Source: Micromonospora lupini str. Lupac 08 (GTDB lineage: Bacteria > Actinomycetota > Actinomycetes > Mycobacteriales > Micromonosporaceae). From it: a stretch of DNA of 64,000 nt. The stretch is from the NCBI RefSeq assembly GCF_000297395.2, contig NZ_HF570108.1:4677910-4741909 (forward strand), given 5' to 3'. The stretch's first letter is position 1; the number at the start of each line of letters is the position of its first letter. Below the pieces are notes generated by a model that did not search any database, was not told the DNA's origin, and worked only from the letters and a program-made list of their open reading frames with translations. A program made the position numbers and the translations under genes. Below are positions 9,890 to 59,252 of the stretch, piece by piece.

Positions 9890-12244
<2,355 letters not shown>

Positions 12245-30483: not shown

Positions 30484-31161
30484 TCAGATGCGCTGGGGTG
30501 CTGCCGTCGGTGGGTCGAGGGCGGCGCGCAGGGTGAAGCGGCTGTTGGCCCACACGACGTAGAGCAGCGGCGCGGCGGCGAGACCGAGAGCGATGGCGGG
30601 GCGGGCCGCCAGAATCTGGGCGAGCAGCGCGAGCACGAGCAGAGACGCGGCGGTGAGGTACCACCGACGCACCGCCAGATACACGCAGGTACGGGCCACC
30701 TCGCGCAGCGGCGCGCCGGGTCGCTCGGCGACGGTCACCAGCCCGAGCAGCGCGGTCGCGACGGTGAGCACGATCAGGGTCGCCAGCACCGGCAGGGCGA
30801 GTGCGCCGACCCGGTGGCCCCACGCGGCGCGGGCGTCGACGGCGAGCACCACCAGGGCGGTCACGGCCGCCGCCGTCCAGAGCATCGCCGGCCGGGCGGT
30901 GGCTCGCCAGGCGCGGCCGTAGGTGCGCAGCACGCCGCCGGTGTCGCCCGCCGAGTAGGCGGACATGACCGCGAAGGCCGCGCAGAGTCCTGGCGCGCAG
31001 AGCGGGGCGGTCAGCGCGTACAGGGGCCAGGAGCGCGCCGCCTCGGTGGTGAACGCGAGCGTCACCAGGGGCAGGCAACCGAGCACCAGCAGCAGGTTGG
31101 TGACGAGCGCGACGTAGATTCCGTCGAAGACGGCGGTGATGATGGTGTGGCGCGATCGCAC
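30484..31161 (-). CDS. DUF624 / YesL-like membrane protein
   Basis: I prefer GTG 31161 (GAGG just upstream) over the TTG at 31170, which would overlap the permease stop by 4 nt. The roughly 225-residue protein has about five TM helices (ALVTNLLLVLGCLPLVTLAF, PGLCAAFAVMS, LWTAAAVTALVVLAV, ALPVLATLIVLTVATALLG, LTAASLLVLALLAQI), with the DUF624/YesL pattern of a short conserved N-terminus. YesL-type proteins accompany carbohydrate ABC importers and uronide hydrolases, e.g. the Bacillus yes locus for rhamnogalacturonan. Biochemical role unknown. Confidence 0.8.
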   Translation of the reverse strand: MRSRHTIITAVFDGIYVALVTNLLLVLGCLPLVTLAFTTEAARSWPLYALTAPLCAPGLCAAFAVMSAYSAGDTGGVLRTYGRAWRATARPAMLWTAAAVTALVVLAVDARAAWGHRVGALALPVLATLIVLTVATALLGLVTVAERPGAPLREVARTCVYLAVRRWYLTAASLLVLALLAQILAARPAIALGLAAAPLLYVVWANSRFTLRAALDPPTAAPQRI

Positions 31162-31166
31162 GGGCC

Positions 31167-32968: not shown

Positions 32969-32997
32969 AGGGAGTCTCCGGAAGCGTTCGGCCTGGC

Positions 32998-33036
32998 GGC
33001 GGGACCGGCGTACGGCGCAGGCGCGCCGGTCCCGCC
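32998..33036 (-). other. Intercistronic hairpin after the solute-binding-protein gene
   Basis: GGCGGGACCGGCG (32998-33010) and CGCCGGTCCCGCC (33024-33036) form a perfect 13-bp stem with a 13-nt loop, starting 6 nt after the binding-protein stop. It probably protects the upstream mRNA from 3' decay or causes partial termination, giving excess binding protein over permease. Confidence 0.65.
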
Positions 33037-33042
33037 ATCAGC

Positions 33043-34347
33043 TCACTGGTTGAGAACTTCGTTCTTGGCGCGGGTCTGCGCCTTGCTCAGTTCCGCGTCG
33101 ACGCCCTTGTTGTCGGAGAGGATCGCCGAATGCGTCTCGTTGAGGAGGTTCTGCAGGCCGGCGGTGTGCTTCGACACCGGGTTCTCCGGCTTGATGGTGT
33201 GCTTGGTGTAGGCGAACTTCGACAGATCGTCCTGCGGTACGCCGTCCAGCCCGAACAGGCTCGCGGTGACCGCGTCCGTGACCTGGGCCGGGGTGAGGCC
33301 GATCCCGGCCAGTGCCTTGCCGGCTTCCGGGCCGGCCGCGTACTTGAGGAAGTCCTTGGCCACGGCGGCCTTCGACTTACTGATCTTCGGGTTGATCCCC
33401 AGGCCGGTCGGGTCACCGAAGGTGACGGGCGTGGCGGAGGTGCCGGTGGTGGACTTGTCGAACTGCGGCGCCGGTGCCATCCCCCACTCGAACGTGTCGG
33501 CGTCACCGCTCTTGCGCTGGTTGAGCAGCGTGGCCACGTACCAGGTGCCCATCAGCAGCATCGCCGACTGCTGCTTGCCGAACTGCGCCTGGTAGGTCAG
33601 CTTGTTGGTCTTCGCGGTGCCGAAGGTCGGCTGCGCGCCGGCCGCCTGCAGGTCCAGTGACCGCTCGTAGTACGGCTTCATGAAGCCGAAGTCGCCGGAG
33701 AGCAGGTCCGCGTTGGGGGTCTGGGCGAGCGCGAATCCCTGCACTGTCGACTGGAAGGTGTGCTGGTACGCGCCTGTCGCGTTCGAGCCGGCCCCCTTCA
33801 GCCCGGTGTGCAGTCGCTTCGCGGCGTCGGTGTAGTCGTCCCAGGTCCAACTGCCGTCCGGCAGCGCCACCTTCGCCTTGGCGAACAGGTCCTTGTTGTA
33901 GTAGAGCACCCAGGAGTCCTGCCGGTACGGCACCGCGTACGCCTTGCCGTCCACCTGGTACGACGCGAGCGCAGGGCTCGAGCCGAGACCGGAGGTGACG
34001 TCGGAGACGTCGAGCAGCTGACCACCGCTCTGGTACGTGTAGAAGTTCTTGAGGTTCTTCATGACATAGACGTCCGGGGCGGTGCCGGCGGCCAGGTCCG
34101 TGATCATCTGGGTGTCGTAGTCGTTGCCCGGGGCGTACTCCTTGAGCTCCACCGTCACGTTCGGGTGGGTCGCCTTGAAGCCGTCGGCGAGCGTCTTGAA
34201 CTCGGGCGTGGACGACAGGCTCCAGCCGGCCAGGGTGATCGTCACCGGGGCGTTGGGGTCGACTGGCTCGTCTCCGCCCCCGCAGCCGGTGAGAACAAGC
34301 GTCAGGGCCATCGCGGCGCTGATGACGGCCGGTATCGTGCGCTTCAT
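33043..34347 (-). CDS. Extracellular solute-binding lipoprotein of a sugar ABC importer
   Basis: A 434-residue family-1 solute-binding protein. The lipobox is LVLTGCGGG. Motifs include VTITLAGWSLSSTPEFKTLADGFKATHPNVTVELKEYAP, APDVYVMKNLKNFYTYQSGGQLLDVSD and AVPYRQDSWVLYYNKDLFAKA. Anchored by lipid outside the membrane, it delivers ligand to the two permeases encoded next. GH88 and the isomerase in the same operon suggest an unsaturated uronide oligosaccharide as ligand. A short GGGCCC-ACAT-GGGCCC hairpin (34367-34382) lies upstream, after the DUF2264 gene. Confidence 0.92.
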   Translation of the reverse strand: MKRTIPAVISAAMALTLVLTGCGGGDEPVDPNAPVTITLAGWSLSSTPEFKTLADGFKATHPNVTVELKEYAPGNDYDTQMITDLAAGTAPDVYVMKNLKNFYTYQSGGQLLDVSDVTSGLGSSPALASYQVDGKAYAVPYRQDSWVLYYNKDLFAKAKVALPDGSWTWDDYTDAAKRLHTGLKGAGSNATGAYQHTFQSTVQGFALAQTPNADLLSGDFGFMKPYYERSLDLQAAGAQPTFGTAKTNKLTYQAQFGKQQSAMLLMGTWYVATLLNQRKSGDADTFEWGMAPAPQFDKSTTGTSATPVTFGDPTGLGINPKISKSKAAVAKDFLKYAAGPEAGKALAGIGLTPAQVTDAVTASLFGLDGVPQDDLSKFAYTKHTIKPENPVSKHTAGLQNLLNETHSAILSDNKGVDAELSKAQTRAKNEVLNQ

Positions 34348-34388
34348 CCCTTTCTCCTTAGGTCAGGGGCCCACATGGGCCCGCACTG

Positions 34389-36392
34389 CTACCAGGTCGC
34401 CTGGCTGGGCCTGGATTGCTCCGTGTCCGGACGGGTCGATGTGCTGATCCCGTCGGGCCAGTCGACCGCCACGTGGAGGCCGCGGGCGTCCTCGTCGATC
34501 ACGGCCTGGCATGCCTGCCCGACCGTGGCCGTCGGCGCCGTGGACAACTCGATGAGGGTGGCGGCCCATGCGCCCGGCCGGACGGGGTGATCCAGCCAGG
34601 GCACGACCAGCCCGCCGGCCAGAGGGCCGCCGTTCGCAACGGTGGTGGCGTCGGCGGTTCCGCCGCCGTGCACACTCGCGATCCGACTGGTCAGACCGGC
34701 GCAGGTCACGGCCGCCATGTTGCCGCGAAGAGTTACCGTCGCGTCCCCGGCGATGGCCCAGCCCCCGATCCGTAGTCGCAGCGCGTCCGCCTCGACGCCG
34801 TCGGCGAGGCCGTCGACGCGGGTCAGACGCAGCTCCCAGGGGCCGCGGACCAGCGAGTACACGGTGAGGTGCCCGGCCGGTCGAGACCGACCCAGGCGGC
34901 CGCCGCCGTGATCGCGCTGACCCGGATCCGGGTCGACCCAGTGGGCGAGGGCACGTGATCCGGCCACACCCACACCGTCGGTGTCGACGTGCACGGTCAG
35001 CAGGCGCATGCCGGCGCGGTGGGTGACCCGGCCCGCGTCGTCGACGAGGGTGACGGACTGGTCGAGAGGACTGAGCCAGCCGCTGTCGTCGAGGACGGGG
35101 CTGGTAGCGGTGGAGTAGCCCAGCCGGGCGTAGAGCGGGGAATCTCCGACGGTGGCACCCTCGACCGTGTGGTCGGTGCCGTGGTTGACGACGCGGACGA
35201 TCCCGTCGGCGCGGGTGCCGGAGACGAGCCAGCCGGGTGCGTGTATCGCCCGCACCTCGTCGCGCTCCTCGACCGGCAGCGGCTCCTCGGGTGTCGTCCA
35301 CACCGGATGGTCGGCGGGCAGCGCGATGCCGAGCAGGCCCTTGCTGGCCCAGTACGGCGAGCCCGGCCCGGAGTACGACTGCGCCAGTCGCGGCCACGGC
35401 CGGTGCCAACCGACGGTGAGCAGGCCGCGTTCGTCCGGGGCGTCGTTGGCGACGAAGTGGCGCACGATGCGGGTCGCCGCGCCGCGCAACCGACCGAGGC
35501 TGACCGAGGGCACGCCGGCGATCGCGCCGACCCAGAAGGGCGCCGCCGCGGCGAAGCGGTAGATCAGGCTTCGCCCCTGGAGCAGCGGTGATCCGTCGGC
35601 TCCGACGAGCGCGACCGCGTCGCTCAGGAAGCGGTCGAGGCCGGCCAGGTCCCGTTCGCGGCGCTGCTCGGCCAGGTCGGCGGCGCCGGCCATTCGCGCC
35701 CACAACGTCGGGTAGAGATGCAGGGCCCAGCCCACGTAGTGGTCGTACGCGCGGTCCGGCCCGTCGGACATCCAGCCGTCCCCACGGGCGAAGCCGTCGT
35801 GCGTGCGCAGGTCCTCGGCCATCTCGTCGAGCGAGTGCGGCCCATCCACCGACCGCAGGAACGTCTGGACGACCAGCCGGAACCAGACCCAGTTGATCCG
35901 TGGGTACGTGTCGTCGCCGACCGCGGGGCGCAGGTAGTCGACCACGCGCCCCTGCACCGCGGACGGCAGCCGGTCCCAGATCCACGGGCGGGTCAGGTCC
36001 AGGACCAGCGCGATGGAGGCGGCCTCCACCTTGGCCTGGGGGTGCTCGTCCAGGCGCGCCCAGCGGTCCGGAGAGCTCGGGTCGGTGCCGGCGGCGATGC
36101 CTGCCGCGTACCTGTCCACCAGCTCGTCCACGCCAACACCCTGGGCGCCGGTGATGCGGAAACCGGCCAGGAGGAAGGTGCGGGCGAAACCCTCCAGGCC
36201 GTCGACGGCCCGCCCGTAACCGCCCTCCGGGCCGGGAAGGGTGACGAGGGCGTGGCCGGGCGACGCGAACGGTCGGGTGGCGGCGAGCATCCGGTCGGCG
36301 AGGACCAGCCAGTCATCCCGGGTCCAGGTCGCGGCGGTGGCGGCATCCACGGCCGGTCCCGGTGTCGACCGGCCGGTCATCCCGGACGTCAT
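34389..36392 (-). CDS. DUF2264-domain protein (GH154-like candidate glycosidase)
   Basis: I use ATG 36392 (AGGA upstream), giving 667 residues; ATG 36380 is close. The N-terminal two thirds form a helical, probably (alpha/alpha)-barrel domain with DUF2264 features: PEGGYGRAVDGLEGFARTFLLAGFRI, PRINWVWFRLVVQTFLRS, DGWMSDGPDRAYDHYVGWALHLYPTLWARM, FWVGAIAG and GPGSPYWASKGLLGIALP. The C-terminal third is beta-rich. I recall DUF2264 corresponding to a glycosidase family acting on glucuronides (GH154), but this should be verified. No signal peptide, so it is cytosolic. First gene of the seven-gene operon and likely to act on imported oligosaccharide. Confidence 0.8.
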   Translation of the reverse strand: MTSGMTGRSTPGPAVDAATAATWTRDDWLVLADRMLAATRPFASPGHALVTLPGPEGGYGRAVDGLEGFARTFLLAGFRITGAQGVGVDELVDRYAAGIAAGTDPSSPDRWARLDEHPQAKVEAASIALVLDLTRPWIWDRLPSAVQGRVVDYLRPAVGDDTYPRINWVWFRLVVQTFLRSVDGPHSLDEMAEDLRTHDGFARGDGWMSDGPDRAYDHYVGWALHLYPTLWARMAGAADLAEQRRERDLAGLDRFLSDAVALVGADGSPLLQGRSLIYRFAAAAPFWVGAIAGVPSVSLGRLRGAATRIVRHFVANDAPDERGLLTVGWHRPWPRLAQSYSGPGSPYWASKGLLGIALPADHPVWTTPEEPLPVEERDEVRAIHAPGWLVSGTRADGIVRVVNHGTDHTVEGATVGDSPLYARLGYSTATSPVLDDSGWLSPLDQSVTLVDDAGRVTHRAGMRLLTVHVDTDGVGVAGSRALAHWVDPDPGQRDHGGGRLGRSRPAGHLTVYSLVRGPWELRLTRVDGLADGVEADALRLRIGGWAIAGDATVTLRGNMAAVTCAGLTSRIASVHGGGTADATTVANGGPLAGGLVVPWLDHPVRPGAWAATLIELSTAPTATVGQACQAVIDEDARGLHVAVDWPDGISTSTRPDTEQSRPSQATW

Positions 36393-36485
36393 CCCAGATC
36401 CTGTCGCATCGATCCGTCTCCGTGGAGTGTGGCGAGCGGGGCGTTGCCCACGAATGTGACGGGCCGGCATCCGCGAGGTTTCCGA

Positions 36486-36691: not shown

Positions 36692-36805
36692 GCCGCTCGC
36701 CCAGCCCGAGGGGCCATGACTGTCGCGGCCGCCTCGCCGTCCCTCCGGCTGCGGCGGCGGGCAACAGGACGGAATTGCTGGAAGCGTTCCTCGGAGGTCT
36801 CCCCC

Positions 36806-37945
36806 ATGTCCAAGGACAGTCCCGGCGTCACCACGGCAGAGACTTCCCGCGCGCCGCTTCAGGTCGCCCGCCGCCAGCAACTGTTGGCCGCCCTGCAACG
36901 CGACGGCTCGATGCGCGTCTCCGACCTGTCGCACGCGCTCGGCGCCGCGCCGGTCACCATCCGGCGCGACATCGCGGAGCTCGCCGCCGAAGGGTTGGTT
37001 CGCCGGGTCCACGGTGGGGTCGCCCTGCTCCTGCCGGACGACGTCCCTTCAGCCGAGGAGCTGCCCGCCGCAGGCCGCAACCCGCTGGGCGGGCGCGCCC
37101 TCGGCATGCTCGTGCCCTCACTGGACTACTACTGGCCGGACGTGGCGCGCGGCGTCGAAAGCGCCGCCCGCGAGCTGGACATGCGCGTGGTTCTGCGCGG
37201 CTCCTCCTACGACACCGAGGACGACCAACCGCAACTGGCCCGCATGGTGGGGCGGATGGGCGTCGACGCGCTGATCATCGCGCCGAGCATGGCCGCACCG
37301 ACCGCCGAGCGCACCATCGAGTGGCTCGACCAGGTCGGCGTCCCGGTCGTCCTGCTGGAACGCACCGCCACGGCCGGCAGTCACCACGCTGTCCTGGAGT
37401 CGGTGGTCACCGACCACGCGCTCGGTGCGGCCATGGCGGTGCGCCACCTCACCTCGCTCGGACACCGCAAGGTCGGCCTGGTGCTCGACGCCAACAGCCC
37501 CACCAGCCAGCACGTGCGGCGCGGCTGGCTCGACGCCACCACCGAGTGCGGCCTCGACTCCGACGCGACAGTGGTGGCCGTGGCACCCGACACGCGCTCA
37601 CCGGAGCGGGACACCGTGCTCGACGGCGTCCTCGACAGGTGCCAGGCGACCGGGACGACGGCGCTGCTGGTGCACGCCGACGCCGAGGCGATCGCGCTCG
37701 TGCAGCGCTGCGAGGAGCGGCACCTCTCCGTCCCCGGCGACCTCTCCATCGTGGCGTACGACGACGAGGTCGCCGGGCTCTTCAGCCCGCCGCTGACCGC
37801 GGTCCGACCGCCGCGACGCTCGATCGGACGGGCCGCCGTGCGTCTCGTCGCCGACCGACTCGCCGACCCCGACCGCCCCACCCACCGGGTCGTCATCAGC
37901 CCATCGCTGCGGGTGCGGGGGTCGACCGCGCCGCCGCCCGCGTAG
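36806..37945 (+). CDS. Hybrid regulator: DeoR-type HTH with LacI/periplasmic-binding sensor domain
   Basis: ATG 36806 lies after GGAGG. The 379-residue protein begins with a DeoR winged helix (ARRQQLLAALQRDGSMRVSDLSHALGAAPVTIRRDIAELAAEGLVRRVHGG), not the LacI HTH. From about residue 90 it switches to a LacI-like effector domain: ALGMLVPSLDYYWPDVARGVESAARELDMRVVLRGSSYD, then DLSIVAYDDEVAGLFSPPLTAVRPPRRSIG. Such hybrids occur in actinobacteria as repressors of carbohydrate operons. Divergent from the uronide operon, with shared GATC-type sites in both promoters, it is the probable repressor, released by an imported or metabolised uronide. Confidence 0.88.
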   Translation: MSKDSPGVTTAETSRAPLQVARRQQLLAALQRDGSMRVSDLSHALGAAPVTIRRDIAELAAEGLVRRVHGGVALLLPDDVPSAEELPAAGRNPLGGRALGMLVPSLDYYWPDVARGVESAARELDMRVVLRGSSYDTEDDQPQLARMVGRMGVDALIIAPSMAAPTAERTIEWLDQVGVPVVLLERTATAGSHHAVLESVVTDHALGAAMAVRHLTSLGHRKVGLVLDANSPTSQHVRRGWLDATTECGLDSDATVVAVAPDTRSPERDTVLDGVLDRCQATGTTALLVHADAEAIALVQRCEERHLSVPGDLSIVAYDDEVAGLFSPPLTAVRPPRRSIGRAAVRLVADRLADPDRPTHRVVISPSLRVRGSTAPPPA

Positions 37946-48699: not shown

Positions 48700-50427
48700 T
48701 CAGTGTGAGTGACGGGGCACCGCGCTGCCGCTGCCACCGACGAGGAAGTCGAGGTCCGCGCCGCTGTCGGCCTGGAGGACATGCTCGCTGTACAGCCGTA
48801 CCCACCCCCGGTCGGCCACCGGCTGTGGTGGTGTCCAGGCGGAACGGCGTTCGGCGAGTTCGGCGTCGTCGACCAGAAGGTCCAGGCGGCGTGTGGTGAC
48901 GTCGACGCTGATCAGGTCGCCGGTGCGCACCAGCGCGAGGGGGCCGCCCACGGACGCCTCCGGCGCCACGTGCAGGACGCAGGTGCCGTAGCCGGTGCCG
49001 CTCATGCGGGCGTCCGAGATCCGCACCATGTCCGTGATGCCGTCGGCGAGCAACCGGCGGGGCATGGGCACGTTGCCCACCTCCGGGAAGCCGGGGTAGC
49101 CGCGTGGTCCGGCGTTGCGAACGACGATCACCGTGTCGGCTGTGACGTCGAGGTCCGGGTCGTCGGCGGCGACGACGTACTCCTCGATCCGGTCGAACAC
49201 GAGCGCCGGGCCGGTGTGCGTGAGCAGGTGCGGGGTGGCTGCGGAGACCTTCAGCACCGCCCCGGACGGCGCGAGCGACCCGCGCAGAACTACGGTGCCC
49301 GAGCCGGCGGGCTGGAACGGCTCCTCCAGGGTGGCGATGACGTCCCGGTTCCAGCACTGGGCGCCGTCGACGTTCTCGGCGACGCTCCTGCCGCTGACGG
49401 TGACGTGGTCCATGTGCAGCAGCGGGGCGAGTTCCCTCATCACCACCGGAAGACCGCCGGCGTAGGCGAAGTCCTCCATCAGGTACGTCCCGGACGGCAT
49501 GAGGTTGACAAGCATCGGCACGTCGGCGGTGAGGGTGTCGAAGTCCTCCAGCGACAGGGGTACGCCGAGGCGTCCGGCGATCGCGAGCAGGTGCACGACC
49601 GCGTTGGTGGAGCCGCCGATCGCGGCGTTTACCCGAACGGCGTTCTCGAACGCCTCCCGGGTGAGCACCGAGGACAGCCGCTGGTCCTCGCCGACCATCG
49701 CGACGATCCGGCGTCCGGCGGCGTGCGCGAGCGCGTACCGCCGGGAGTCGACCGCGGGCACGGCGGCCGCTCCGGGCAGTTGCACGCCCAGCGCCTCGGT
49801 CACGCAGGCCATGGTGGACGCCGTACCCATGGTCATGCAGTGGCCCCGGCTGCGGGACATGCCGACCTCTGCCTCGGCGCAGTCGGCGGCGGTCATCCGG
49901 CCGGCCCGCATCTCCTCCGTGAAGCGCCAGACGACAGTGCCGGAGCCGATGTCCTGGCCGCGGAACTTGCCGTTGAGCATCGGGCCGCCGGTCAACATCA
50001 GCGTCGGCAGGTCGACGCTCGCGGCCCCCATCAGCAGGCCGGGAGTGGTCTTGTCGCAGCCGGAGAGCAGGACCACCCCGTCGAGGGGATTGGCGCGGAC
50101 CGACTCCTCCAACTCCATCGCGAGCAGGTTGCGGTAGAGCATGGTGGTGGGTCGCATGAGCGGCTCGCCGAGGCTCATCGCCGGGAACTCCAGCGGCAGG
50201 CCGCCGCTCTCCCACACGCCCCGCTTCACCGATTCGGCCAGGTCGCGCAGGTGGGCGTTGCAGGGCGTCAGCTCCGACCAGGTGGTGGCGATGCCGATCA
50301 CCGGGCGACCGTCGAAGACGTCGTCCGCGAAACCCTGGTTGCGCATCCAGGACCGATGGATGAACCCGTTGCGGCCCTCCGCACCGAACCACTGCCCGCT
50401 GCGCAGCGACCGATCCGTCGTCGACAT
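48700..50427 (-). CDS. IlvD/Edd-family pentonate (arabonate/xylonate) dehydratase
   Basis: ATG 50427 follows GAGAGG. The 575-residue cytosolic protein has the Fe-S cluster Cys motifs of the family: SELTPCNAHL, LLSGCDKTTPG and SRGHCMTMGTAS. The start RSGQWFGAEGRNGFIHRSWMRNQG is characteristic of the sugar-acid branch (L-arabonate/D-xylonate/galactonate) rather than of IlvD or Edd. It removes water from a pentonate to give 2-keto-3-deoxypentonate. It is co-transcribed with a sugar importer, and the matching next enzymes (XylX-like and semialdehyde dehydrogenase) are encoded at 59.4-62.2 kb. Sugar-acid specificity is inferred. Confidence 0.9.
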   Translation of the reverse strand: MSTTDRSLRSGQWFGAEGRNGFIHRSWMRNQGFADDVFDGRPVIGIATTWSELTPCNAHLRDLAESVKRGVWESGGLPLEFPAMSLGEPLMRPTTMLYRNLLAMELEESVRANPLDGVVLLSGCDKTTPGLLMGAASVDLPTLMLTGGPMLNGKFRGQDIGSGTVVWRFTEEMRAGRMTAADCAEAEVGMSRSRGHCMTMGTASTMACVTEALGVQLPGAAAVPAVDSRRYALAHAAGRRIVAMVGEDQRLSSVLTREAFENAVRVNAAIGGSTNAVVHLLAIAGRLGVPLSLEDFDTLTADVPMLVNLMPSGTYLMEDFAYAGGLPVVMRELAPLLHMDHVTVSGRSVAENVDGAQCWNRDVIATLEEPFQPAGSGTVVLRGSLAPSGAVLKVSAATPHLLTHTGPALVFDRIEEYVVAADDPDLDVTADTVIVVRNAGPRGYPGFPEVGNVPMPRRLLADGITDMVRISDARMSGTGYGTCVLHVAPEASVGGPLALVRTGDLISVDVTTRRLDLLVDDAELAERRSAWTPPQPVADRGWVRLYSEHVLQADSGADLDFLVGGSGSAVPRHSH

Positions 50428-50475
50428 CAGCACACCTCTCTGTTCGTCCGAACGCGTAGCTGGTGGAGGGGGGCC

Positions 50476-51360
50476 CTACCGGAGGCCCCCGACGGACAGT
50501 CCGCCGCGCCAGTGTCGTTGCAGGCTGAAGAACGCGATGACAAGTGGGATCACTGACACGAGCGAGCCCAGGATGATGAGGCTCCACAGCGAGGTGCCTC
50601 CCGAGTTGTTCGCGGAGGCGATCCCCTGCCAGAGGCCGAGGCCGACAGTCACCGGGAAGAGCCGGTTGTCGGAGAGCATGGCCAGGGGCAGGAAGTAGTT
50701 GTTCCACGACGCGACTGCCGAAAGGAGCAGCACGGTCACCACCGCGGGGCGCATCAGCGGAAGGGCGATCTGGAGGAACGTCCGCACCTCTCCCGCGCCG
50801 TCGACCCGCGCCGCGTCGAGAAGCTCGTCGGGCACCGCGTCGCGGGCGTACACGTGCATCAGGTAGACGCCGAACGGGTTGAGCAGCGACGGGAGGATCA
50901 CCGCCCACACCGTGTTCGTCAGGCCGAGCCGGGAGAACATGATGAAGGTGGGGATGACCAGGGCGGTGGCGGGCACCATCAGCGCGCCGAGCACGACGGC
51001 GAAGCTGAAGCGCCGCGCGGCGAACCGGTACTTGGCGAACCCGTAGCCGGCCATGACCGCCAGGACCGTGGCGCCGATCCCGCCGGCGATGGCGTACAGC
51101 GTGGAGTTGAGGATCCACCGCAGGTAGATGCCACCGTCGTAGGTGAAGAGCTGCCTGAGGTTGCCGAGGTAGTCGATCCGGTCGGTGAACCAGAGGGTGT
51201 TGCCGCCACCGAACAGGCCCGGCGCGTCCTTGGAGCTGTTGACGATGACCCACCAGAACGGCACGAGGAAATAGATCACCAGGAAGCCGAGGAGGATCTG
51301 CAGAGGAAGGTAGTGCTGCGGGCGGCGGGCGCCTGCGCGGACGCTGGTTTGGTCGGCCAT
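50476..51360 (-). CDS. Carbohydrate ABC importer permease (MalG type)
   Basis: A 294-residue six-TM permease whose ATG directly follows the TAG of the previous permease (no gap). It contains the EAA loop DELLDAARVDGAGEVRTFLQI and the start YLPLQILLGFLVIYFLVPFWWVIVNSSK. It pairs with the product of 51361-52302. The dehydratase gene follows 48 bp later. No ATPase is encoded nearby. Confidence 0.93.
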   Translation of the reverse strand: MADQTSVRAGARRPQHYLPLQILLGFLVIYFLVPFWWVIVNSSKDAPGLFGGGNTLWFTDRIDYLGNLRQLFTYDGGIYLRWILNSTLYAIAGGIGATVLAVMAGYGFAKYRFAARRFSFAVVLGALMVPATALVIPTFIMFSRLGLTNTVWAVILPSLLNPFGVYLMHVYARDAVPDELLDAARVDGAGEVRTFLQIALPLMRPAVVTVLLLSAVASWNNYFLPLAMLSDNRLFPVTVGLGLWQGIASANNSGGTSLWSLIILGSLVSVIPLVIAFFSLQRHWRGGLSVGGLR

Positions 51361-52302
51361 CTAGAGGAAGCTCCTCCGCTTGCGGGTGAAGAACAGGAAG
51401 GCGTACACGCAGATGAACACGATGCCGCCGAGGGCGAACGAGATCGCCGACCCGTAGTTGAAGTTGGCGAGCGAGAACGCCTGCTGGTACGCGTACATGT
51501 TGGGCGTGAAGTCGGTCCCGATCGTGCCCGCGGCGAGGTAGCGCAGGATCTGCGGTTCGTTGAAGAACTGCAGGGTGCCGATGAGCGAGAAGACCAGGAT
51601 CAGGATCAGCGCGGGGGCGATCAGCGGGATCTTGATGCGCGTCGCGATCTGCCATCGTCCGGCGCCGTCCATCCGCGCGGCCTCGTAGAGCGTCGGGTCG
51701 ACTCCCTGCAACGCCGCGTACAGGATGATCATGTAGTAGCCGGCCCACTGCCAGGTGACGACGTTGAGCAGGCCGTAGAAGATCAGGTCGCTGCCCAGGA
51801 AGTCGGGTGCGGTGGCGCCGAACAGCCCGAAGATGTCGGTGAGCGGGCCGAAGCCCTTGCTGTAGAGGAACCCCCACATCACGGCCCCGATGACCGTCGG
51901 GATCGCGTACGGCAGAAAGATCATGAGACGGGAGAAGCGCGCGAACAGCGTCGTCACCGCGTCCAGGATGAGGGCCAGCACGAGCGCGATGCCGATCTGC
52001 AGCGGGATGGAGACGAGCGAGAAGCGGAGAACGAACCACGCCCCGGACAGGAAGCTCGGGTCGGTGAACGCCTTCACGTAGTTGTCGAAGAGGACGAAGC
52101 TGGTGCCGCCGATCAGCTTCTTCTGAAAGAGACTGAGGTACAACGCGTACGCCAGCGGCGCGATGAGGAACGCCAGGAAGACGACCGCGAACGGCCCGAC
52201 GAAGAGCCACCCCATCAGGTGCTCGCGGAGGTGCACCTTGCCACGGATCTTGGGCGTCTCGTGCTGACGACGCCGTGCGCGCTTCTCGGTCAGGAGTGTC
52301 AT
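51361..52302 (-). CDS. Carbohydrate ABC importer permease (MalF type)
   Basis: A 313-residue permease with a charged cytoplasmic N-terminus (KRARRRQHETPKIRGKVHLRE), six TM helices and the EAA loop PTLYEAARMDGAGRWQIATRI. It is the first permease of the pentose/oligosaccharide importer and is separated from the binding-protein gene by a 34-bp perfect palindrome. Confidence 0.93.
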   Translation of the reverse strand: MTLLTEKRARRRQHETPKIRGKVHLREHLMGWLFVGPFAVVFLAFLIAPLAYALYLSLFQKKLIGGTSFVLFDNYVKAFTDPSFLSGAWFVLRFSLVSIPLQIGIALVLALILDAVTTLFARFSRLMIFLPYAIPTVIGAVMWGFLYSKGFGPLTDIFGLFGATAPDFLGSDLIFYGLLNVVTWQWAGYYMIILYAALQGVDPTLYEAARMDGAGRWQIATRIKIPLIAPALILILVFSLIGTLQFFNEPQILRYLAAGTIGTDFTPNMYAYQQAFSLANFNYGSAISFALGGIVFICVYAFLFFTRKRRSFL

Positions 52303-52378: not shown

Positions 52379-53719
52379 TCACTGAACGGTGAAGCCCTGT
52401 TCCTTGGCGTACTTCGCCACGTCCTCCTGGAGCTTGTCGGCAGCCTGGGAACCGGTGACCGAGCCCTTGATGACCTCGCTGACCTGCTTCGTCATGGCGT
52501 CGAGGTAGTACTGGCCGAAGGGCGCGTAGGCGACACCCTTGTAGGCCTCGGCGGCGGGAAGGTAGACCTCCTTGTTCGCCTGCTGGCCGTCGAAGAACGC
52601 CACCTTCAGGTCGGCGAACGCCGGATCCTTGAGCGCCGTGAGGTTCAGCGGGAAGATGATCTGGTTGGTCCAGCCGTCGGTGAGTGACTCCTTGTCGGCG
52701 TAGAGCCCGTAGGCGACCTTCGCCGCCAGCTCCGGCTTCTTCGCCTGCTTGGTCACGGAGAAGGCCGACCCACCCCAGTTGACCTGCACCGGGTTGGCCG
52801 GATCCCACTGCGGCAGCGGCGCCACCGCGAACTTGCCGGTGTCCTGGCCCTTACCGACACCCGCGCCGGTGAGGTAGCCGGGCGCCCAGGCCGCCGAGAT
52901 GTACGTCGCGTACTTGCCGTTGATCACGCCGGAGATGTACTCCGGGGTGAACTGGTCCTGCGTGCCGACCAGGCCCTTCTTGGCGAGGCCGCCCCAGTAG
53001 TCCAGCACGTCCTTGGACGCCTGGTCGTTGAGCTTCACGCCTATCGACTTCGGCTGCGCCGGATCGAAGGTGAAGGGCGAAGCGCCCTTCTGGATCTGCA
53101 GCGCCATCAGGACCGCCGGGACGTTCGCGCCGAGGTCGCCGAAGAGCGGGCCGCCGGCGTCCTTCACCTTCTGTGCGGCCTGCTCGTACTCGGCCCAGGT
53201 CTTCGGCGGGGTGATCTTGTACTTGTCGAAGATGTCCTTGCGGTAGATCATGCCCATCGGACCACCGTCGACAGGTACGCCGTAGACCGCGTCGCCTACC
53301 GACACGTCCTTCCAGGCGCCCTCGCCGTAGTTGGCCTTCACCGCGTCGTAGCCGTACTGCTTGATGTCGACGAGCGCGCCCTGGATCTGGAACGTCGGGA
53401 TCCGGTCCGCCTCGACCATGATCACGTCGGGCGCCCCGGTGCCCGCCGAGATGGCCGTCTGGAACTTGTCGTACTCGTCGCCGCCCTGCCCGACGTTGGT
53501 CCAGCAGACCTGCACGTCGTCGTGCTGCTTGTTGAAGTTGTCCACGACGAGCTGGGTGTTGGGGTACCAGCCCCACATCGTCACGACCGGCACGTTCTGC
53601 TTCGTGATGGTGTTCGTGCAGTTGCTCGCGTCGCTGCCGCCCTCGTCGGAGGAGCAGGCGACCAGGCCGCTCCCGGCCGCGAGCATGGCCACCGTGGCGA
53701 GTAAGCGTCTTCTCTTCAT
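52379..53719 (-). CDS. Extracellular solute-binding lipoprotein of sugar ABC importer
   Basis: ATG 53719 gives 446 residues with an RR-containing lipoprotein signal (KRRRLLATVAMLAAGSGLVACSS). Family-1 motifs include PVVTMWGWYPNTQLVVDNFNKQHDDVQVCW, GAPDVIMVEADRIPTFQIQGALVDI, YGVPVDGGPMGMIYRKDIFDKY and WDPANPVQVNWGGSAFSVTKQAKKPELAAKVAYGLY. Two Cys residues (NCTN and QVCW) may form a disulfide. It feeds the two permeases that follow. Neighbouring arabinofuranosidase and pentonate genes suggest arabinose- or xylose-containing ligands. Confidence 0.93.
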   Translation of the reverse strand: MKRRRLLATVAMLAAGSGLVACSSDEGGSDASNCTNTITKQNVPVVTMWGWYPNTQLVVDNFNKQHDDVQVCWTNVGQGGDEYDKFQTAISAGTGAPDVIMVEADRIPTFQIQGALVDIKQYGYDAVKANYGEGAWKDVSVGDAVYGVPVDGGPMGMIYRKDIFDKYKITPPKTWAEYEQAAQKVKDAGGPLFGDLGANVPAVLMALQIQKGASPFTFDPAQPKSIGVKLNDQASKDVLDYWGGLAKKGLVGTQDQFTPEYISGVINGKYATYISAAWAPGYLTGAGVGKGQDTGKFAVAPLPQWDPANPVQVNWGGSAFSVTKQAKKPELAAKVAYGLYADKESLTDGWTNQIIFPLNLTALKDPAFADLKVAFFDGQQANKEVYLPAAEAYKGVAYAPFGQYYLDAMTKQVSEVIKGSVTGSQAADKLQEDVAKYAKEQGFTVQ

Positions 53720-53826: not shown

Positions 53827-56001
53827 CTAGCGCTTGAACAGACGCGGAGCCAGGTCGATGAGGTTCTTCTGCCACACGTCCCAGCCGTGCGGCCCGGGTG
53901 TGACGCCGTCGAACTCGTAGCGGATACCGAGGGTGTCCAACGTGGTCAGCGACGCCAGGAAGCTCGGGTAGACGAAGTCGGTCCGGTCGCCCACGTACAG
54001 GCGCAGCATCTTCGTCCCGTTGTTGATCGCGGCCACGTCGACGCCGGTGCCGCTGCCGAATCCGGCCGAGAGGGCCGCGACGTACGCGAACTCCCCCGGG
54101 TAGGCCCGCAGGACGCCAAGCGCCTGCCCGCCGCCCATCGACAGGCCGGCGAGGGCCTGCTGGGACGGATCGCTGGAGATGTGGTAGCGGGCACGGGCCA
54201 TCGGCACGATGTTCTCCAACAGCTCCCGGTTGAAGTTCGACGAGTTGCCGTTGCCCATCACGACGACCATGGGCGTGAGGTCGCCGTCGAGGAACTGGTT
54301 GTCGAGGATCTGCTTGGCACGGCCCATCTCGACCCAGTCGGTGTAGCTCTGGCCGCTGCCGTGCTGGAGATAGAGGACGGGGTACGGCTGTGCCCGATTC
54401 GGGTCGTACCCGGGTGGGGTCCACACCAGCGCGGTGCGGTCCTGACCGGCCACGGTGCTCGGGTAGGTCATGCTCTCGACGGTTCCGCCCCGACCGGCGG
54501 GCACGTCCGACAGCAGTCGGGCGCCCGGTCCCGGGAGGAGGAAGGTGCTCCACATCGGTTCGGAGGTCACAGTGGTCGGGTTCGAGGTGTCCTTGACCGC
54601 GACCCGGTCCACGATCAGCCGGTAGTAGTAGAACCAGGGCTTCAGCGGGCCGATTGTCGCCCGCCACCGGTCGCCGTCCCGCGTCAGCGGCACGCGCAGC
54701 CAACTGCCGCCCGGCGCGATGTTGGCCCACACCGTGACGTGCTGGGCATTCGTGAACTCGGTGGTGGTCTCGAAGGTGACGAACCCGCCCTCGCTGACGA
54801 ACGGCGTCGGCGTGGTGCCGGCCGGCGGCGGGGTGAACTCCCGCCGCAACGGCTGGTGACCGGGGCTGGGCCGGTGGTCGGACACGTGCTGGAACAGCCG
54901 CGGCAGGAAGTCGGCCAGGTTCTCCTGCCAGGTGGTCCAGTTCGCGCCGCCGTCGGGGTTGACCCCGTCGAACTCGAACCGGACATCGGCTCGGTCCAGC
55001 GCCTTCATCAGCCGGTAGGTGGGGTTGTACGCGGGATCGGTGACGTTGCCCGTGTAGAGGCGCAGCAGCTTGACGCCGCGGTTGGTCGCCGTGGCGTGCT
55101 TCCGGTCGATCGCCGGCGCCGACGTGCCCGAGAACGATCCGACGTAACCGAACTGACCAGGCTTGGCGAGCGCGGCCCGCAGCGCCTGCGTGCCACCGTC
55201 GGCCACTCCCGCGATCGCCTGGTGTGCCGGATCGCGGAGGACCCGGTAGGTGTCGGCGACCGCCTTCCGGAGGTCCGTCAACTGCCTGTCGTCGGCATCG
55301 CTGAGCACGACCACCATCGGGCGCATGGCGCCGGCGGCCGAGAGGTTGTCGAGGATCTGCTTGGACCGACCGAGGTCGAGCCAGTCGGTGGCGGCAGCAC
55401 CGGCGCCCGACTGGAGGAAGAGGGCGGGGTATCCCTTCGGTCCCTTGGCCGCGTATCCCGGCGGCGTCCAGACCAGGGCGGACTGCTGAGCGCCGCCGGT
55501 CCGGTAGGTGAGCGTCCCGATCGCACCGCCGGTGCCGGCGGGCGCGTCGACCAGCCAGCGCGCCGAGTCACCCGCGACCAGGAAGGTGCTCAGGAGCGGG
55601 TGGGACGCGACGCTCGTGCTGTTCGTCGGGTCCTTGATGGTCTTGGTGTCGTCGGCGGTGAGCTGGTAGTGGTAAAGCCCCGGCGCGAGCGCGCCGAGCA
55701 CACCTGACCACACGTCGCCGCGACGGGTCAGACCGAATTCCGCCCAGGTGGCGGACGGACCGAAGTTGCCCTCGACGACTACCTGCGAGACGGTGCCCAG
55801 CTTCTCCTGGACGTACGCCGCCGGAACGGTGAACGAGGCGTAGCGGTCCTGGGAGACGTCCAGCCACGGCGTGTCGGCCGCCGCGGGTTGCGGGGCGAGC
55901 AGGGCCGCCGCGAGGGCGATGACTACGGCCGTGAACGCCGCCGAGACCCGCCGGCGTACGCCCGGACGGCGTAAGCGCCCGTGATAATGTTCGGTTGTCA
56001 C
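53827..56001 (-). CDS. Secreted two-lobed esterase (tandem esterase units, first unit lacking catalytic residues)
   Basis: The start used is GTG 56001. The 724-residue precursor has a signal peptide (AAFTAVVIALAAALLAPQPAAA). Each half consists of an N-terminal beta-sandwich (CBM48/E-set-like, LYHYQLTADD and FYYYRLIVDR) and a Fes/CE1-type alpha/beta-hydrolase unit (ALVWTPPGY, ILDN, PMVVV). The second half is intact: nucleophile AGLSMGGGQAL and terminal His in TPGPHGWDVWQKNL. In the first half these read AGVADGGTQAL (Ser to Ala) and PDGGANWTTWQENL (His to Ala), so that unit should be inactive. Relatives are feruloyl or acetylxylan esterases. It lies between the LacI gene and the importer. Confidence 0.88.
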   Translation of the reverse strand: MTTEHYHGRLRRPGVRRRVSAAFTAVVIALAAALLAPQPAAADTPWLDVSQDRYASFTVPAAYVQEKLGTVSQVVVEGNFGPSATWAEFGLTRRGDVWSGVLGALAPGLYHYQLTADDTKTIKDPTNSTSVASHPLLSTFLVAGDSARWLVDAPAGTGGAIGTLTYRTGGAQQSALVWTPPGYAAKGPKGYPALFLQSGAGAAATDWLDLGRSKQILDNLSAAGAMRPMVVVLSDADDRQLTDLRKAVADTYRVLRDPAHQAIAGVADGGTQALRAALAKPGQFGYVGSFSGTSAPAIDRKHATATNRGVKLLRLYTGNVTDPAYNPTYRLMKALDRADVRFEFDGVNPDGGANWTTWQENLADFLPRLFQHVSDHRPSPGHQPLRREFTPPPAGTTPTPFVSEGGFVTFETTTEFTNAQHVTVWANIAPGGSWLRVPLTRDGDRWRATIGPLKPWFYYYRLIVDRVAVKDTSNPTTVTSEPMWSTFLLPGPGARLLSDVPAGRGGTVESMTYPSTVAGQDRTALVWTPPGYDPNRAQPYPVLYLQHGSGQSYTDWVEMGRAKQILDNQFLDGDLTPMVVVMGNGNSSNFNRELLENIVPMARARYHISSDPSQQALAGLSMGGGQALGVLRAYPGEFAYVAALSAGFGSGTGVDVAAINNGTKMLRLYVGDRTDFVYPSFLASLTTLDTLGIRYEFDGVTPGPHGWDVWQKNLIDLAPRLFKR

Positions 56002-56123: not shown

Positions 56124-57146
56124 TCACGGTCGTGCCGCGCTCGTCGGTGCTGCGGTCGAACCGCGGACCACGAGGCTGGTCGGAAGCACTATCTGGTGGG
56201 GGTCGTCCCACTCGCCGGTCACCAGTGACTTGAGCATCCGCGCGGCTTCGTACCCGAGCTGGTACATCGACTGGTCCACTGTGGTCAGACCCGGCTCGGT
56301 CAGCGCCGCCTCCGGGATGTTGTCGAACCCGACGACGGACAGGTCCCCGGGGACGGAGAGCCCCATCTCCCTGGCGACCTCCAGGACCTTGAGGGCCATC
56401 CCGTCGCTCGCCGCGAAGATCGCCGACGGCGGGTCCGCGCGTTGCAGCAGGGCACGCGCCAACGGAGCTGCCGACTCGGGGTTGAAATCCCCCCTGCCGA
56501 TCAACGTCGGGTCGACCGGGACGCCGGCCGTGGTCAGCGCGGCCCGGTAGCCCTCCTCACGCGACCACGCCGAGGCCAGGCTGTCGCGGCCCGCGATGAA
56601 CCCGATGCGCCGATGACCCAGGCCGAGCAGGTGCTCGACAGCGGTGGTGGCGCCCACGAGGTTGTCGGCCGTGACCGAGGGCGCCGTCGAACCTCGCACC
56701 GGGTCGATGGCCACGACGGGTGTCCGGCTGCGCACCTCGCCCCAGGGCGTGACGACGATGCATCCATCGGTGAGCGTGCCCGACAGCCGGGTCAGATGCC
56801 GCTGCTCCCAGCCCTCCGAGTACGACCCGTAGAGGTCGCTGTTGGCGTAGATGATGAGGTCGAAGCCCGAGCGACTCAGAGCCTTCATGACCCCCTTGAG
56901 CACCTCCGCCGTGTACGACTGGAAGCTGTGCGCCACGAGGCCCAGAACATTGGTGCGGCTGCGCCGGAGGCTCGACGCCACCAGGCTCGACTCGTAGCCG
57001 AGCTGCTCGATCGCGGTCCGCACCTGGGCGATCGTGCCGGCGCTGACGCCGTAGTGCCCGTTGACGACGCGCGAGACGGTGGCGGTGGAAACGCCGGCGA
57101 CCCGGGCGACATCACTCATCGTCACCGGCGCATTGGCTTCTATCAT
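56124..57146 (-). CDS. LacI-family repressor of the arabinoxylan genes
   Basis: ATG 57146 follows AGAGAGAGCGGC. The 340-residue protein has the LacI HTH VTMSDVARVAGVSTATVSRVVNGHYGVSAGTIAQVRTAIEQLGYESSLVASSLR and a sugar-sensor domain (VLGLVAHSFQSYTAEVLKGVMKALSRSGFDLIIYANSD; LSVVGFDNIPEAALTEPGLTTVDQSMYQLG). It is divergent from the GH51 gene. CGTTAYCGGTAACG-like sites lie close to both promoters, so it probably represses itself and the arabinofuranosidase, and perhaps the esterase gene 122 bp downstream. Confidence 0.92.
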   Translation of the reverse strand: MIEANAPVTMSDVARVAGVSTATVSRVVNGHYGVSAGTIAQVRTAIEQLGYESSLVASSLRRSRTNVLGLVAHSFQSYTAEVLKGVMKALSRSGFDLIIYANSDLYGSYSEGWEQRHLTRLSGTLTDGCIVVTPWGEVRSRTPVVAIDPVRGSTAPSVTADNLVGATTAVEHLLGLGHRRIGFIAGRDSLASAWSREEGYRAALTTAGVPVDPTLIGRGDFNPESAAPLARALLQRADPPSAIFAASDGMALKVLEVAREMGLSVPGDLSVVGFDNIPEAALTEPGLTTVDQSMYQLGYEAARMLKSLVTGEWDDPHQIVLPTSLVVRGSTAAPTSAARP

Positions 57147-57728
57147 GCCGCTCTCTCTGGACTGCAATCGTTATCGGTTACGTTTCCAGGATGTTGCCAA
57201 CGTAACGGACGACGATTACGAACACAAGACTCCTTCACCCGCACGCGAAGGCCGATCGGAAGGTCCTAACGGGACGTTCGCAGGGTGGACTTCCCGACTC
57301 GGTAACCGATGCGCAGAAGGCGAACGGTTGCCACTCCCGGCGGCCTGAGTGGATCGCCAATTCGCCTTGGCTCCACCCGATGACGACGTCGGGAACCATT
57401 CCCGGCCGCCGATGACCGATCACGACGCCGGAACGAGCGCGGGGCAGGCGACCCCCGCGTCGGTGCGCAGCCGCCCGACGCGAACATTGGTCACGGCCAC
57501 CGTGTTCCCTGCCGCAAACGTGATCGGTAACGTTTACATAGATCGACAACGTAATCGACGATCATGGCGATGTCCAGAGCTCGCACCGACCCACCACCCC
57601 TCGGTCCCGGCACCGCGATCCAGATCCCGACGTCGGGAACCCCAAGCGAAGGAGCCCGCCCTGAACACCCACCCCCACCTCGCCGCGCTGCCGGTCCGAC
57701 CCCGTCACCACCAGCAGGGAGGGCTGTC
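57147..57728. promoter_or_regulatory. 582-bp control region with LacI operators between LacI and GH51 genes
   Basis: No gene is seen. On the LacI side, CGTTATCGGTTACG (57169-57182) and GTTGCCAACGTAAC (57193-57206) lie within the leader and promoter. On the GH51 side, AAACGTGATCGGTAACGTTT (57516-57535) is a 20-bp palindrome with 8 of 10 paired positions, directly followed by a TACATA -10-like box and a further half site (ACAACGTAATCG, about 57547-57558). All share a GATCGGTAACG-like core typical of LacI proteins. The middle part (57240-57500) shows nothing recognisable. Confidence 0.7.
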
Positions 57729-59252
57729 GTGAACACCGCGCGCCTGCTCCTGGACCCACGCCGACGCGTCGCGCCGGTGCCCCGCCGGCTCTTCGGCTCG
57801 TTCGTCGAGCACCTGGGCCGCTGTGTCTACGGCGGAATCTACGAGCCGGACCACCCGACCGCCGACGCGGACGGCTTTCGGGGCGACGTCCTCGCGCTCG
57901 TCCGCGAGCTGGGCATCACCACGGTCCGCTACCCGGGCGGCAACTTCGTCTCCTCCTACCGCTGGGAGGACGGCGTCGGCCCGGTCGACAAACGACCGGC
58001 CCGACTCGACCTCGCCTGGCACAGTCTGGAGACGAACGCGTTCGGGCTGGACGAGTTCATGCGCTGGGTCGGCAAGGCCGGCGTCGACCCGATCATGGCG
58101 GTCAACCTCGGCACCCGTGGCACCGCCGAGGCCGTCGACCTGCTGGAGTACGCCAACCACCGCGGTGGGAGTCACCTCGCCGACAAGCGTCGCGACAACG
58201 GTGCCGTCGACCCGTACGGGATCAGGCTGTGGTGCCTGGGCAACGAGATGGACGGCCCGTGGCAGGTGGGTCAGCGGAGCGCGACCGAGTACGGGCGGCT
58301 CGCGGCACAGACCGCGAAGGCCATGCGCCGTTTCGACTCGGACCTCGAACTCGTCGCCTGCGGCTCGTCGTACCTCGGCATGCCGACCTTCGGCAGCTGG
58401 GAGCGCGACGTGCTGACCGAGGCGTACGACGACGTCGACCTGATCTCACTGCACGCCTACTACCAGCCGGTCGACGACGACCTGCCCAGCTTCCTCGCCT
58501 CGGCCGAGGACATGGACACCTACATCGACGCCGTCACCGCCATCGCCGACTCGGTCGGAGCGATCCGCCGGTCGACCAGGAAGATCATGATCGCGTTCGA
58601 CGAGTGGAACGTCTGGTACCAGTCCGCAGCTCCGTCCACCCCGCCGAGTGGGGAGGACTGGCCGGTCGCGCCGCCCCTGCTGGAGGACCACTACAGCGTG
58701 GCCGACGCCGTCGTCGTCGGTGGCCTGCTCATCAGCCTGCTCCGGCACAGCGACCGGGTGACCGCGGCGTGCCAGGCCCAACTGGTGAACGTCATCGCCC
58801 CGATCATGACCGAACCGGGCGGCTCGGCCTGGCGGCAGACCATCTTCCACCCCTTCGCCCGCACGGCCCGGCACGCCCGGGGCGCCGTGCTCGACGTGCT
58901 CCGCGACAGCAGCACGACGACCACCGACCGCTACGGTGTCGTCGACGCGGTCGACGCGGTCTCCACCTGGGACGACAGCACCGGTGAGATGACCGTGTTC
59001 CTCGTCAACCGGGTCCTCGACACTCCGGCCGAGGTGACAGTCGACGTGGCGGGCGCCCAGGTGGGCGGGATCATCGAGTGCGTCACCGTCGGCGGCGCCG
59101 ACCTCGACGCCAGGAACACCGCCGACGGTCCGGACCACGCCGAGCCGCGCACCAACGACACGGCCCGGGGCAGCGGCGCCAGCGTCCAGCTGACGCTTCC
59201 GCAGGCGTCGTGGACCATGCTGCGGCTCCGCGCCACCGACGTGACCCCGTAA
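57729..59252 (+). CDS. abfA: GH51 alpha-L-arabinofuranosidase (intracellular)
   Basis: GTG 57729 follows GGGAGGG; the Pro-rich frame upstream is not coding. The 507-residue protein has no signal peptide. GH51 hallmarks are LFGSFVEHLGRCVYGGIYEP, TTVRYPGGNFVSSYRWEDGVGP, the acid/base in WCLGNEMDGPWQ, HAYYQPV and the nucleophile in IMIAFDEWNVWYQ; a C-terminal jelly roll ends WTMLRLR. It releases L-arabinose from arabino-oligosaccharides after uptake. It is monocistronic with a terminator behind it and an operator palindrome in front for the divergent LacI protein. Confidence 0.95.
   Translation: MNTARLLLDPRRRVAPVPRRLFGSFVEHLGRCVYGGIYEPDHPTADADGFRGDVLALVRELGITTVRYPGGNFVSSYRWEDGVGPVDKRPARLDLAWHSLETNAFGLDEFMRWVGKAGVDPIMAVNLGTRGTAEAVDLLEYANHRGGSHLADKRRDNGAVDPYGIRLWCLGNEMDGPWQVGQRSATEYGRLAAQTAKAMRRFDSDLELVACGSSYLGMPTFGSWERDVLTEAYDDVDLISLHAYYQPVDDDLPSFLASAEDMDTYIDAVTAIADSVGAIRRSTRKIMIAFDEWNVWYQSAAPSTPPSGEDWPVAPPLLEDHYSVADAVVVGGLLISLLRHSDRVTAACQAQLVNVIAPIMTEPGGSAWRQTIFHPFARTARHARGAVLDVLRDSSTTTTDRYGVVDAVDAVSTWDDSTGEMTVFLVNRVLDTPAEVTVDVAGAQVGGIIECVTVGGADLDARNTADGPDHAEPRTNDTARGSGASVQLTLPQASWTMLRLRATDVTP

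Follow-up and report, generated by a model that had tools for sequence, protein, structure and literature searches.

A tandem CBM48-CE1 esterase of Micromonospora lupini whose first unit lacks the catalytic serine and histidine

Tandem architecture and catalytic residues

The 64,000-nucleotide stretch of the Micromonospora lupini Lupac 08 genome analysed here (the window; contig NZ_HF570108.1) encodes on its reverse strand, at 53827..56001, a secreted esterase of 724 residues that consists of two consecutive units, each composed of a CBM48-like domain and a CE1 domain. This assignment follows from the open reading frame (ORF), a Pfam match and the alignment of the two halves. The ORF starts with GTG, is preceded by AGGAG and contains no internal stop codon. 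Residues 1-42 (55876..56001) form a putative N-terminal secretion signal, judged by eye from a hydrophobic stretch ending in AAA-D, the presumed cleavage site. Unit 1 comprises a CBM48-like beta domain (residues 43-148; 55558..55875), identified from the fold model and its alignment to wtsFae1B over model residues 1-331, and a degenerate CE1 fold (residues 149-372; 54886..55557), identified from the alignment of the halves, the fold model and structure matches. A linker of 26 residues (373-398; 54808..54885), conserved among 100 tandem ORFs, leads to unit 2 with its CBM48-like domain (residues 399-496; 54514..54807; full-length model and PDB structure matches) and its catalytic CE1 domain (residues 497-724; 53830..54513; Pfam and PDB matches). 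All these features lie on the reverse strand.

The halves were identical at 130 of 309 positions in a BLASTP comparison (42%, 230 bits, E 4e-78), which is far beyond chance, and residues 43-372 and 386-724 are homologous along their full length. A Pfam search of the 724-residue protein gave the Esterase family (PF00756, E 2.3e-32) with its best stretch at residues 515-716; no CBM48 row was obtained at E 0.01, and a CBM46 row (PF18448) at 0.001 was sub-threshold. Among PDB sequences it matched CBM48-CE1 feruloyl esterases, most strongly with its second half (8bbp_A, E 4.3e-43). Of the NCBIfam models, one for a xylanase/feruloyl esterase came nearest, but its 147 bits were far under the cut-off of 1200 bits.

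Structure prediction and alignment of the halves, as proposed in the first-pass annotation of this DNA, returned a CBM48-CE1 fold for both. The model of unit 1 alone (predicted local distance difference test, pLDDT, 92.0; predicted template modelling score, pTM, 0.90) has the CE1 fold and matched wtsFae1B best (8bbp_A, Z 36.3, 2.0 Å over 315 residues); its nearest solved folds, 8bbp, 8bf3 and 6rzn, gave Z scores of 35.8-36.3 with 311-315 residues aligned and a Foldseek E of about 1e-29. Unit 2 has the CE1 alpha/beta-hydrolase fold according to both PF00756 and its structure matches, the best of which, to wtsFae1 CBM48-CE1 chains, reached Z 38.0 over 320 residues. The CBM48 beta-sandwich N-terminal to CE1, as in 6RZN, 8BBP and 7B5V, is present in each unit, the alignments starting at model residue 1-2 for unit 1 and 347-355 for unit 2. 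The two-domain fold of wtsFae1A and wtsFae1B (PDB 6RZO, 6RZN, 8BBP, 8BF3) thus equals that of each tandem unit. The solved chains, however, are single CBM48-CE1 units, whereas the M. lupini protein has two, of which the first lacks Ser and His. Another structure match of the unit 1 model, MPT51/FbpC1 of the antigen 85 group (PDB 1r88), has an esterase fold and is not known to possess a working triad, but it is a single domain of another family and with another biology.

Unit 2 shows the motifs LQHGSG, AGLSMGG with the nucleophile Ser621 in GxSxG (54139..54141), DRTDF with the acid Asp675 (53977..53979) and GPHGW with the catalytic His705 (53887..53889); these three residues were assigned by alignment and from orthologues. 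In the equal alignment columns unit 1 has LQSGAG, AGVADGG with Ala267 (GCC; 55201..55203) at the nucleophile position, NVTDP with the retained acid residue Asp322 (55036..55038) and GGANW with Ala353 (GCG; 54943..54945) at the position of the catalytic His. The HG of the oxyanion loop (547-548 in unit 2) is replaced by SG (198-199), a change absent from the first-pass annotation. The earlier description of a duplicated secreted esterase with Ala at the Ser and His positions of its first unit is borne out, and judged by these residues unit 1 is a CE1-derived pseudo-esterase, not a catalytic CE1 domain.

Trivial causes of this pattern were rejected. The register is fixed by orthologues with intact first units, which show for example GLSMGG and GHNW at the Ser and His columns, and the His column is not misaligned: intact orthologues read PDAGHNW where the M. 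lupini protein reads PDGGANW. A sequencing error was discarded, as the substitutions recur in many separately sequenced species. A replacement His was rejected too, there being no invariant-His column in the CE1 domain among the 47 rows of the clade to which the protein belongs; the His-rich columns are 260 (44/47) within residues 149-399, and in the linker 376 (46/47) and 382 (47/47).

Orthologues and the order of residue loss

The M. lupini Lupac 08 genome has one match to the tandem protein. Matches at E <= 0.001 were found in 33 of 61 genomes, many of them distant single CE1s, at E <= 1e-60 in 47 of 250 genomes of the family and at E <= 1e-30 in 18 of 394 genomes of the class, the own genome being counted each time. 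Forty-four loci came from a named genome collection, with Micromonospora, Microbispora, Nonomuraea, Planotetraspora, Actinoplanes, Phytoactinopolyspora, Microbacterium, Mycetocola, Promicromonospora and Glycomyces among them. The 100 tandem ORFs, all from actinobacteria, are 125 ORFs (at least 600 residues, match above 400 bits) minus 25 duplicates; as L117 and L129 are overlapping fetches of one gene, 99 rows are distinct. By its nature, the open-frame filter passes no broken copies. Loci that were not included are L070 and L074, which lie at contig ends, L066 with a frame change, and L073, a remnant. In L066 (Microbispora triticiradicis, L066:10013-11889) the tandem gene continues in a second frame after a break at which about 54 residues of unit 1 are missing, possibly by an assembly error; in L073 (Streptosporangium sp. 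KLBMP 9127, L073:10001-10261) only residues 638-724 of the tandem protein were found. Subsets were used for the unit tree (31 of the 100), a careful tree (39), structure alignments (42) and a synteny table (26 loci). The label Jiangellaceae type is presumptive and comes from two rows that equal L049 (Phytoactinopolyspora) and L050 (a metagenome-assembled genome). In L031, L032, L033, L046 and L071 (several Micromonospora) a second CE1-like ORF, of 542-634 residues, is located upstream of the tandem gene at a distance of about 3.6-6.3 kb; M. lupini Lupac 08 has no second match.

When 31 tandem proteins were cut into their units and placed in a tree with four outgroup CE1s, all first units (31/31) and all second units (31/31) each fell on one side of a branch. 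Support for this split was 95 and 81, the long outgroup branches making the root less sure. By this tree a single old duplication gave both units, and the losses in unit 1 therefore postdate it.

HG, Ser, Asp and His of unit 2 are retained in 99 of the 100 tandem ORFs, the exception being L056, the match of which ends at residue 681. The Asp of unit 1 is retained in all 100. Scored by HG, Ser and His only, unit 1 is intact in 17 ORFs; 14 of them are clear cases (nine of the Jiangellaceae type, four Microbacteriaceae, one Promicromonospora) and three (L090, L091, L094) are of the Actinoplanes type with altered surroundings. Another 17, of the Actinoplanes type, have Ser and His but a changed HG, 28 have Ser without His and 38 have neither, His being lost in 66 of 100 in total. 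Orthologues with an intact first unit, which the first-pass annotation had named as evidence that would refute its reading, do therefore exist: the loss is real but arose within clades and does not characterise the family as a whole.

In the own clade (47 rows, branch support 100) the unit 1 His column holds Ala in 42 and Gly in five rows, and the Ser column holds Ser in 28, Ala in 16 and Gly in three. Most of the Ser codons are TCC and most of the Ala codons GCC, a difference of a single base. The fewest changes on the tree are two for the unit 1 His and nine for the Ser, and the sister rows of the Actinoplanes type retain both residues. Because His is absent from all 47 rows and Ser is variable, His was lost once and first in this clade, with the change of Ser to Ala or Gly coming later. 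The double Ala thus describes the M. lupini protein and is not a general rule; across orthologues of its clade the loss of His is conserved (47/47) but that of Ser is not (19/47).

A second group of His-less first units, which combines the Glycomyces type with a paralogue carrying a C-terminal tail (the W type), is placed apart from the own clade. Constraining all His-lost rows to one clade was, however, not rejected in the 39-sequence tree (p-AU 0.143), and we do not claim two origins of the His loss as certain. The W-type paralogues L009, L010, L011, L137, L142, L143, L145, L146, L147 and L148 have the nucleophile elbow GLSWG in unit 2, and their C-terminal tail is similar, with 112-115 residues, in the five sequences compared. 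In one W-type unit 1, that of L137, the nucleophile elbow is shortened by a deletion.

One may ask whether unit 1 has a rebuilt site and still catalyses some reaction. Its Ser is present in 28 and its Asp in all of the 47 clade rows, and His260 in 44. Nevertheless the old His column is devoid of His, the Ser drifts to Ala or Gly, in M. lupini as well, and the HG of the oxyanion loop is changed, and we consider such a site very improbable.

Constraint on the first unit and its possible role

Selection was estimated from 210 pairs (209 for the CBM48 part of unit 1) of 21 sequences of the Micromonospora clade. The median omega (ratio of nonsynonymous to synonymous rates) was 0.262 for unit 1 (range 0.141-0.373) and 0.145 for unit 2; it was 0.292 versus 0.127 for the CE1 parts and 0.199 versus 0.178 for the CBM48 parts. 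Unit 1 is relaxed yet under purifying selection. The ratio of unit 1 to unit 2 CE1 divergence was 0.94 in Microbacteriaceae and 1.24 in the Jiangellaceae type, both with an intact unit 1, and 1.99 in the His-lost own clade, 1.59 in the Actinoplanes type and 1.59 in the Glycomyces type. In the W type it was only 1.16, the dead unit 1 being nearly as constrained as unit 2. The earlier statement that the unit is fully maintained without stops agrees with this selection and with the absence of stops among the matches listed, but maintenance is not universal, L066 and L073 being damaged.

These values bear on the view that unit 1 is a functionless passenger in slow decay, the deletion of which would break the chain, so that selection only avoids misfolding. 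Its roughly twofold relaxed evolution, the stepwise change of the oxyanion loop, His and then Ser, the frame change and missing stretch in unit 1 of L066 and the mere unit 2 remnant of L073 would all be explained in this way. On the other hand, no internal stop occurs among the matches listed, although the 47 clade rows were chosen as open frames of at least 600 residues; these rows span several genera of two families and still share 118 invariant positions within 43-399 (169 within 400-724). The slow W-type unit 1 likewise does not fit, nor does the acid loop, which is more conserved in unit 1 of the His-lost clade than in unit 2 (diversity 0.065 versus 0.119, the reverse of the usual order). 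We regard mere decay as rather unlikely.

The pocket was defined as 21 positions around the nucleophile, the oxyanion loop and the His. Its diversity in the His-lost clade was 0.283 in unit 1 and 0.027 in unit 2, and 0.040-0.078 in intact first units; outside the pocket the CE1 domain gave 0.258 and 0.144, and the CBM48 domain 0.214 and 0.179, for units 1 and 2 respectively. In unit 1 the pocket has thus lost its place as the most conserved region and is now about as diverse as the domain on average, a loss that adds to a general relaxation.

A function as binding lobe or scaffold had been suggested for unit 1. As a lectin-like module it could hold feruloylated or acetylated xylan in the old groove or on its CBM48 domain, which is nearly as conserved as that of unit 2, and the acid loop and the His-loop window stay conserved as well. 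That a dead CE1 domain can bind is indicated by catalytic-Ser mutants solved with ferulate bound (entry titles 1gkl, 7xrv), and excerpts of PMC12247016 cite a disturbed substrate recognition of CE1 upon deletion of CBM48. Against this, the diversity of the unit 1 pocket matches that of the remaining CE1 domain, an argument against a conserved ligand site at this place, and the entropy of the oxyanion-loop window is 0.83 in unit 1 but 0.29 in unit 2. The most variable stretch is formed by residues 289-310 (1.25-1.39), for which we do not assume proximity to the pocket; the nucleophile window has only 0.46. Moreover, the isolated CBM48 domains of DmCE1A and DmCE1B bound none of the glycans tested, according to excerpts of PMC8040265. 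A binding lobe of this kind is possible but doubtful, while the scaffold part of the suggestion agrees with the conservation of CBM48, acid loop and linker. The linker has a majority frequency of 0.863 in the own clade (0.812-0.906 for the domains), and Gly381, His382 and Gly395 as well as Pro400 just beyond it are present in 100 of 100 tandem ORFs. A pocket of average diversity together with a conserved CBM48 domain, acid loop and linker therefore favours a body that is kept for its shape and contacts rather than for a ligand pocket.

The model of the mature full-length protein (682 residues) had a pLDDT of 92.5 and a pTM of 0.88, with residues 321-360 in blocks of 88-94. A pTM of 0.88 for two equal units, together with the pLDDT of these residues, suggests a fixed mutual placing of the units in the prediction. 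A precedent is found in DmCE1B of Dysgonomonas mossii, a secreted CE1-CBM48-CE1 protein whose C-terminal CE1 domain has minimal activity; its C-terminal CBM48-CE1 fragment (DmCE1B_ct) forms a dimer, in the crystal and in solution, in which the CBM48 domains are clasped and the CE1 beta1 strands are adjacent (excerpts of PMC8040265). DmCE1B and the M. lupini tandem are both single secreted chains that contain a pair of CE1 domains with one weak or dead member. They differ in that DmCE1B, as described in these parts of PMC8040265, has one CBM48, a C-terminal weak domain and an intact triad in all its CE1 domains, which are 35% identical and in which the authors see no recent duplication.

We assume that unit 1 is now probably a structural or binding partner of the active unit 2. 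More specifically, we prefer, with about even confidence, to read unit 1 as a derived pseudo-esterase that is retained for its structural role beside unit 2, the chain being an intramolecular counterpart of the CBM48-CE1 dimer. One old duplication would have produced two active units, after which the His of unit 1 would have been lost in an ancestor of Micromonospora and Streptosporangiaceae, and the then useless Ser would have drifted to Ala or Gly in several lineages including M. lupini. Unit 2 would perform the sole chemistry, with the body of unit 1 (CBM48, CE1 core and linker) as its fixed partner. The chain would fold as an intramolecular copy of the homodimer of single enzymes, with one catalytic and one non-catalytic protomer, and the CBM48 domain of unit 1 may still touch the polysaccharide. 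Of this picture, the data show the duplication, which residues were lost and in what order on the tree, the purifying selection and the disappearance of the pocket's special conservation; the fold and the fixed arrangement of the units are predicted, and the absence of activity from unit 1, the pseudo-dimer and the substrate are inferred.

Several points weigh against this reading. The rate of evolution in unit 1 is about double that in unit 2, and the clade contains two further, damaged copies (L066, damaged in unit 1, and L073), observations that fit slow decay. The relaxation of unit 1 is not confined to the pocket (0.258 versus 0.144 in the rest of CE1). The Actinoplanes type, with Ser and His retained, has an equally diverse unit 1 pocket (0.317), and in Microbacteriaceae and Promicromonospora the pocket is more diverse in unit 2 (0.140) than in unit 1 (0.040). 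The beta1 segments are not specially conserved. The inactivity of unit 1 is read from its residues only, and the pseudo-dimer from confidence scores and analogy. Finally, full-length DmCE1B still appears dimeric in solution despite its two CE1 domains (excerpts of PMC8040265), so that a tandem arrangement does not by necessity make the dimer intramolecular.

Many enzyme families include pseudo-enzyme units. Inactive relatives with a part in the breakdown of plant cell walls have been described elsewhere, for example GH28 in beetles (excerpts of PMC6549527). Excerpts of PMC8040265 and PMC12247016 describe CBM48-CE1 enzymes and also paired CE1 domains of which one is weak or silent. PMC12247016 concerns Fll4 of Flavimarina sp. 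Hel_I_48, with CE6, CE1a and CE1b domains, the third of which is inactive on the substrates studied. Fll4 resembles the M. lupini protein as a multi-esterase chain with a silent domain, but it is marine, includes CE6 and, in the available parts of PMC12247016, no loss of triad residues is stated. A tandem with one CE1 domain lacking catalytic residues was not recognised among the papers listed from the open-licence literature, where absence is not absence in print.

On a broader scale we put forward, tentatively and with less confidence than the pseudo-dimer itself, that tandem CBM48-CE1 proteins were repeatedly remodelled in actinobacteria into heterodimers within a single chain, one protomer of which is devoted to a non-catalytic role. 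This would have happened in the Micromonospora/Streptosporangiaceae clade and, independently, in the Glycomyces and W-type clades. Attack on the polymer or stability would require the inert half, and the stages of the change, first the oxyanion loop, then His and finally Ser, would all be visible in orthologues that still exist. The stepwise range of first units from active to dead, beside an active twin in the chain as internal control, is a clean system to ask why a dead domain is kept. It may help to explain CE1 pairs in which one partner has little or no activity, such as DmCE1B_ct and the third domain of Fll4, and it is a warning that counts of CE1 domains overstate catalytic capacity.

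Genomic neighbourhood and likely substrate

Directly upstream of the tandem gene lies a gene for a LacI-family regulator (56124..57167, reverse strand; Pfam, synteny). Past it follow an alpha-L-arabinofuranosidase on the forward strand (57564..59252; ArfA model 691 bits, cut-off 625), which we take to be of the GH51 type, an aldehyde dehydrogenase and an FAA-hydrolase-family protein. On the downstream side, all on the reverse strand, there are the binding lipoprotein of a sugar ABC transporter (52379..53716; profile match, synteny), its putative permeases 1 (51361..52302) and 2 (50476..51360; both Pfam, synteny) and an IlvD/Edd-family sugar-acid dehydratase similar to L-arabinonate dehydratase (48700..50433; 855 bits, cut-off 882), beyond which a second LacI regulator is found. 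Within flanks of up to 10 kb the order LacI, tandem gene, binding protein, permease 1 is conserved in 16 of 26 loci. Ten of the 26 have a GH51 relative nearby, Microbacteriaceae with an intact unit 1 among them; three loci (L039, L040, L060) have none of these neighbours and L072 has only distant permeases.

Ferulate is attached to arabinose in such polymers. The neighbourhood suggests an arabinose-bearing glycan and hence, because ferulate sits on arabinose, a role as feruloyl esterase. Feruloylated or acetylated xylan, which unit 1 may bind according to the first-pass annotation, is not shown by this evidence. The probable substrate of the tandem protein is an arabinose-bearing hemicellulose, on which it would most likely act as a feruloyl (or acetyl) esterase.

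Elsewhere in the window, a GH2-type protein with a C-terminal AbfB arabinose-binding domain is encoded at 9890-12244 on the forward strand. Further plant-polymer genes occupy 23344-36470, namely a GH5 with a ricin-type lectin, a GH43-like protein (below cut-off) with AbfB, a GH88-like protein, an ABC binding protein and a DUF2264 protein. At 36716-37945, on the forward strand, lies a regulator in which a DeoR-type helix-turn-helix (HTH) domain (PF08220) is joined to a LacI-type sugar-sensing domain (PF13377).

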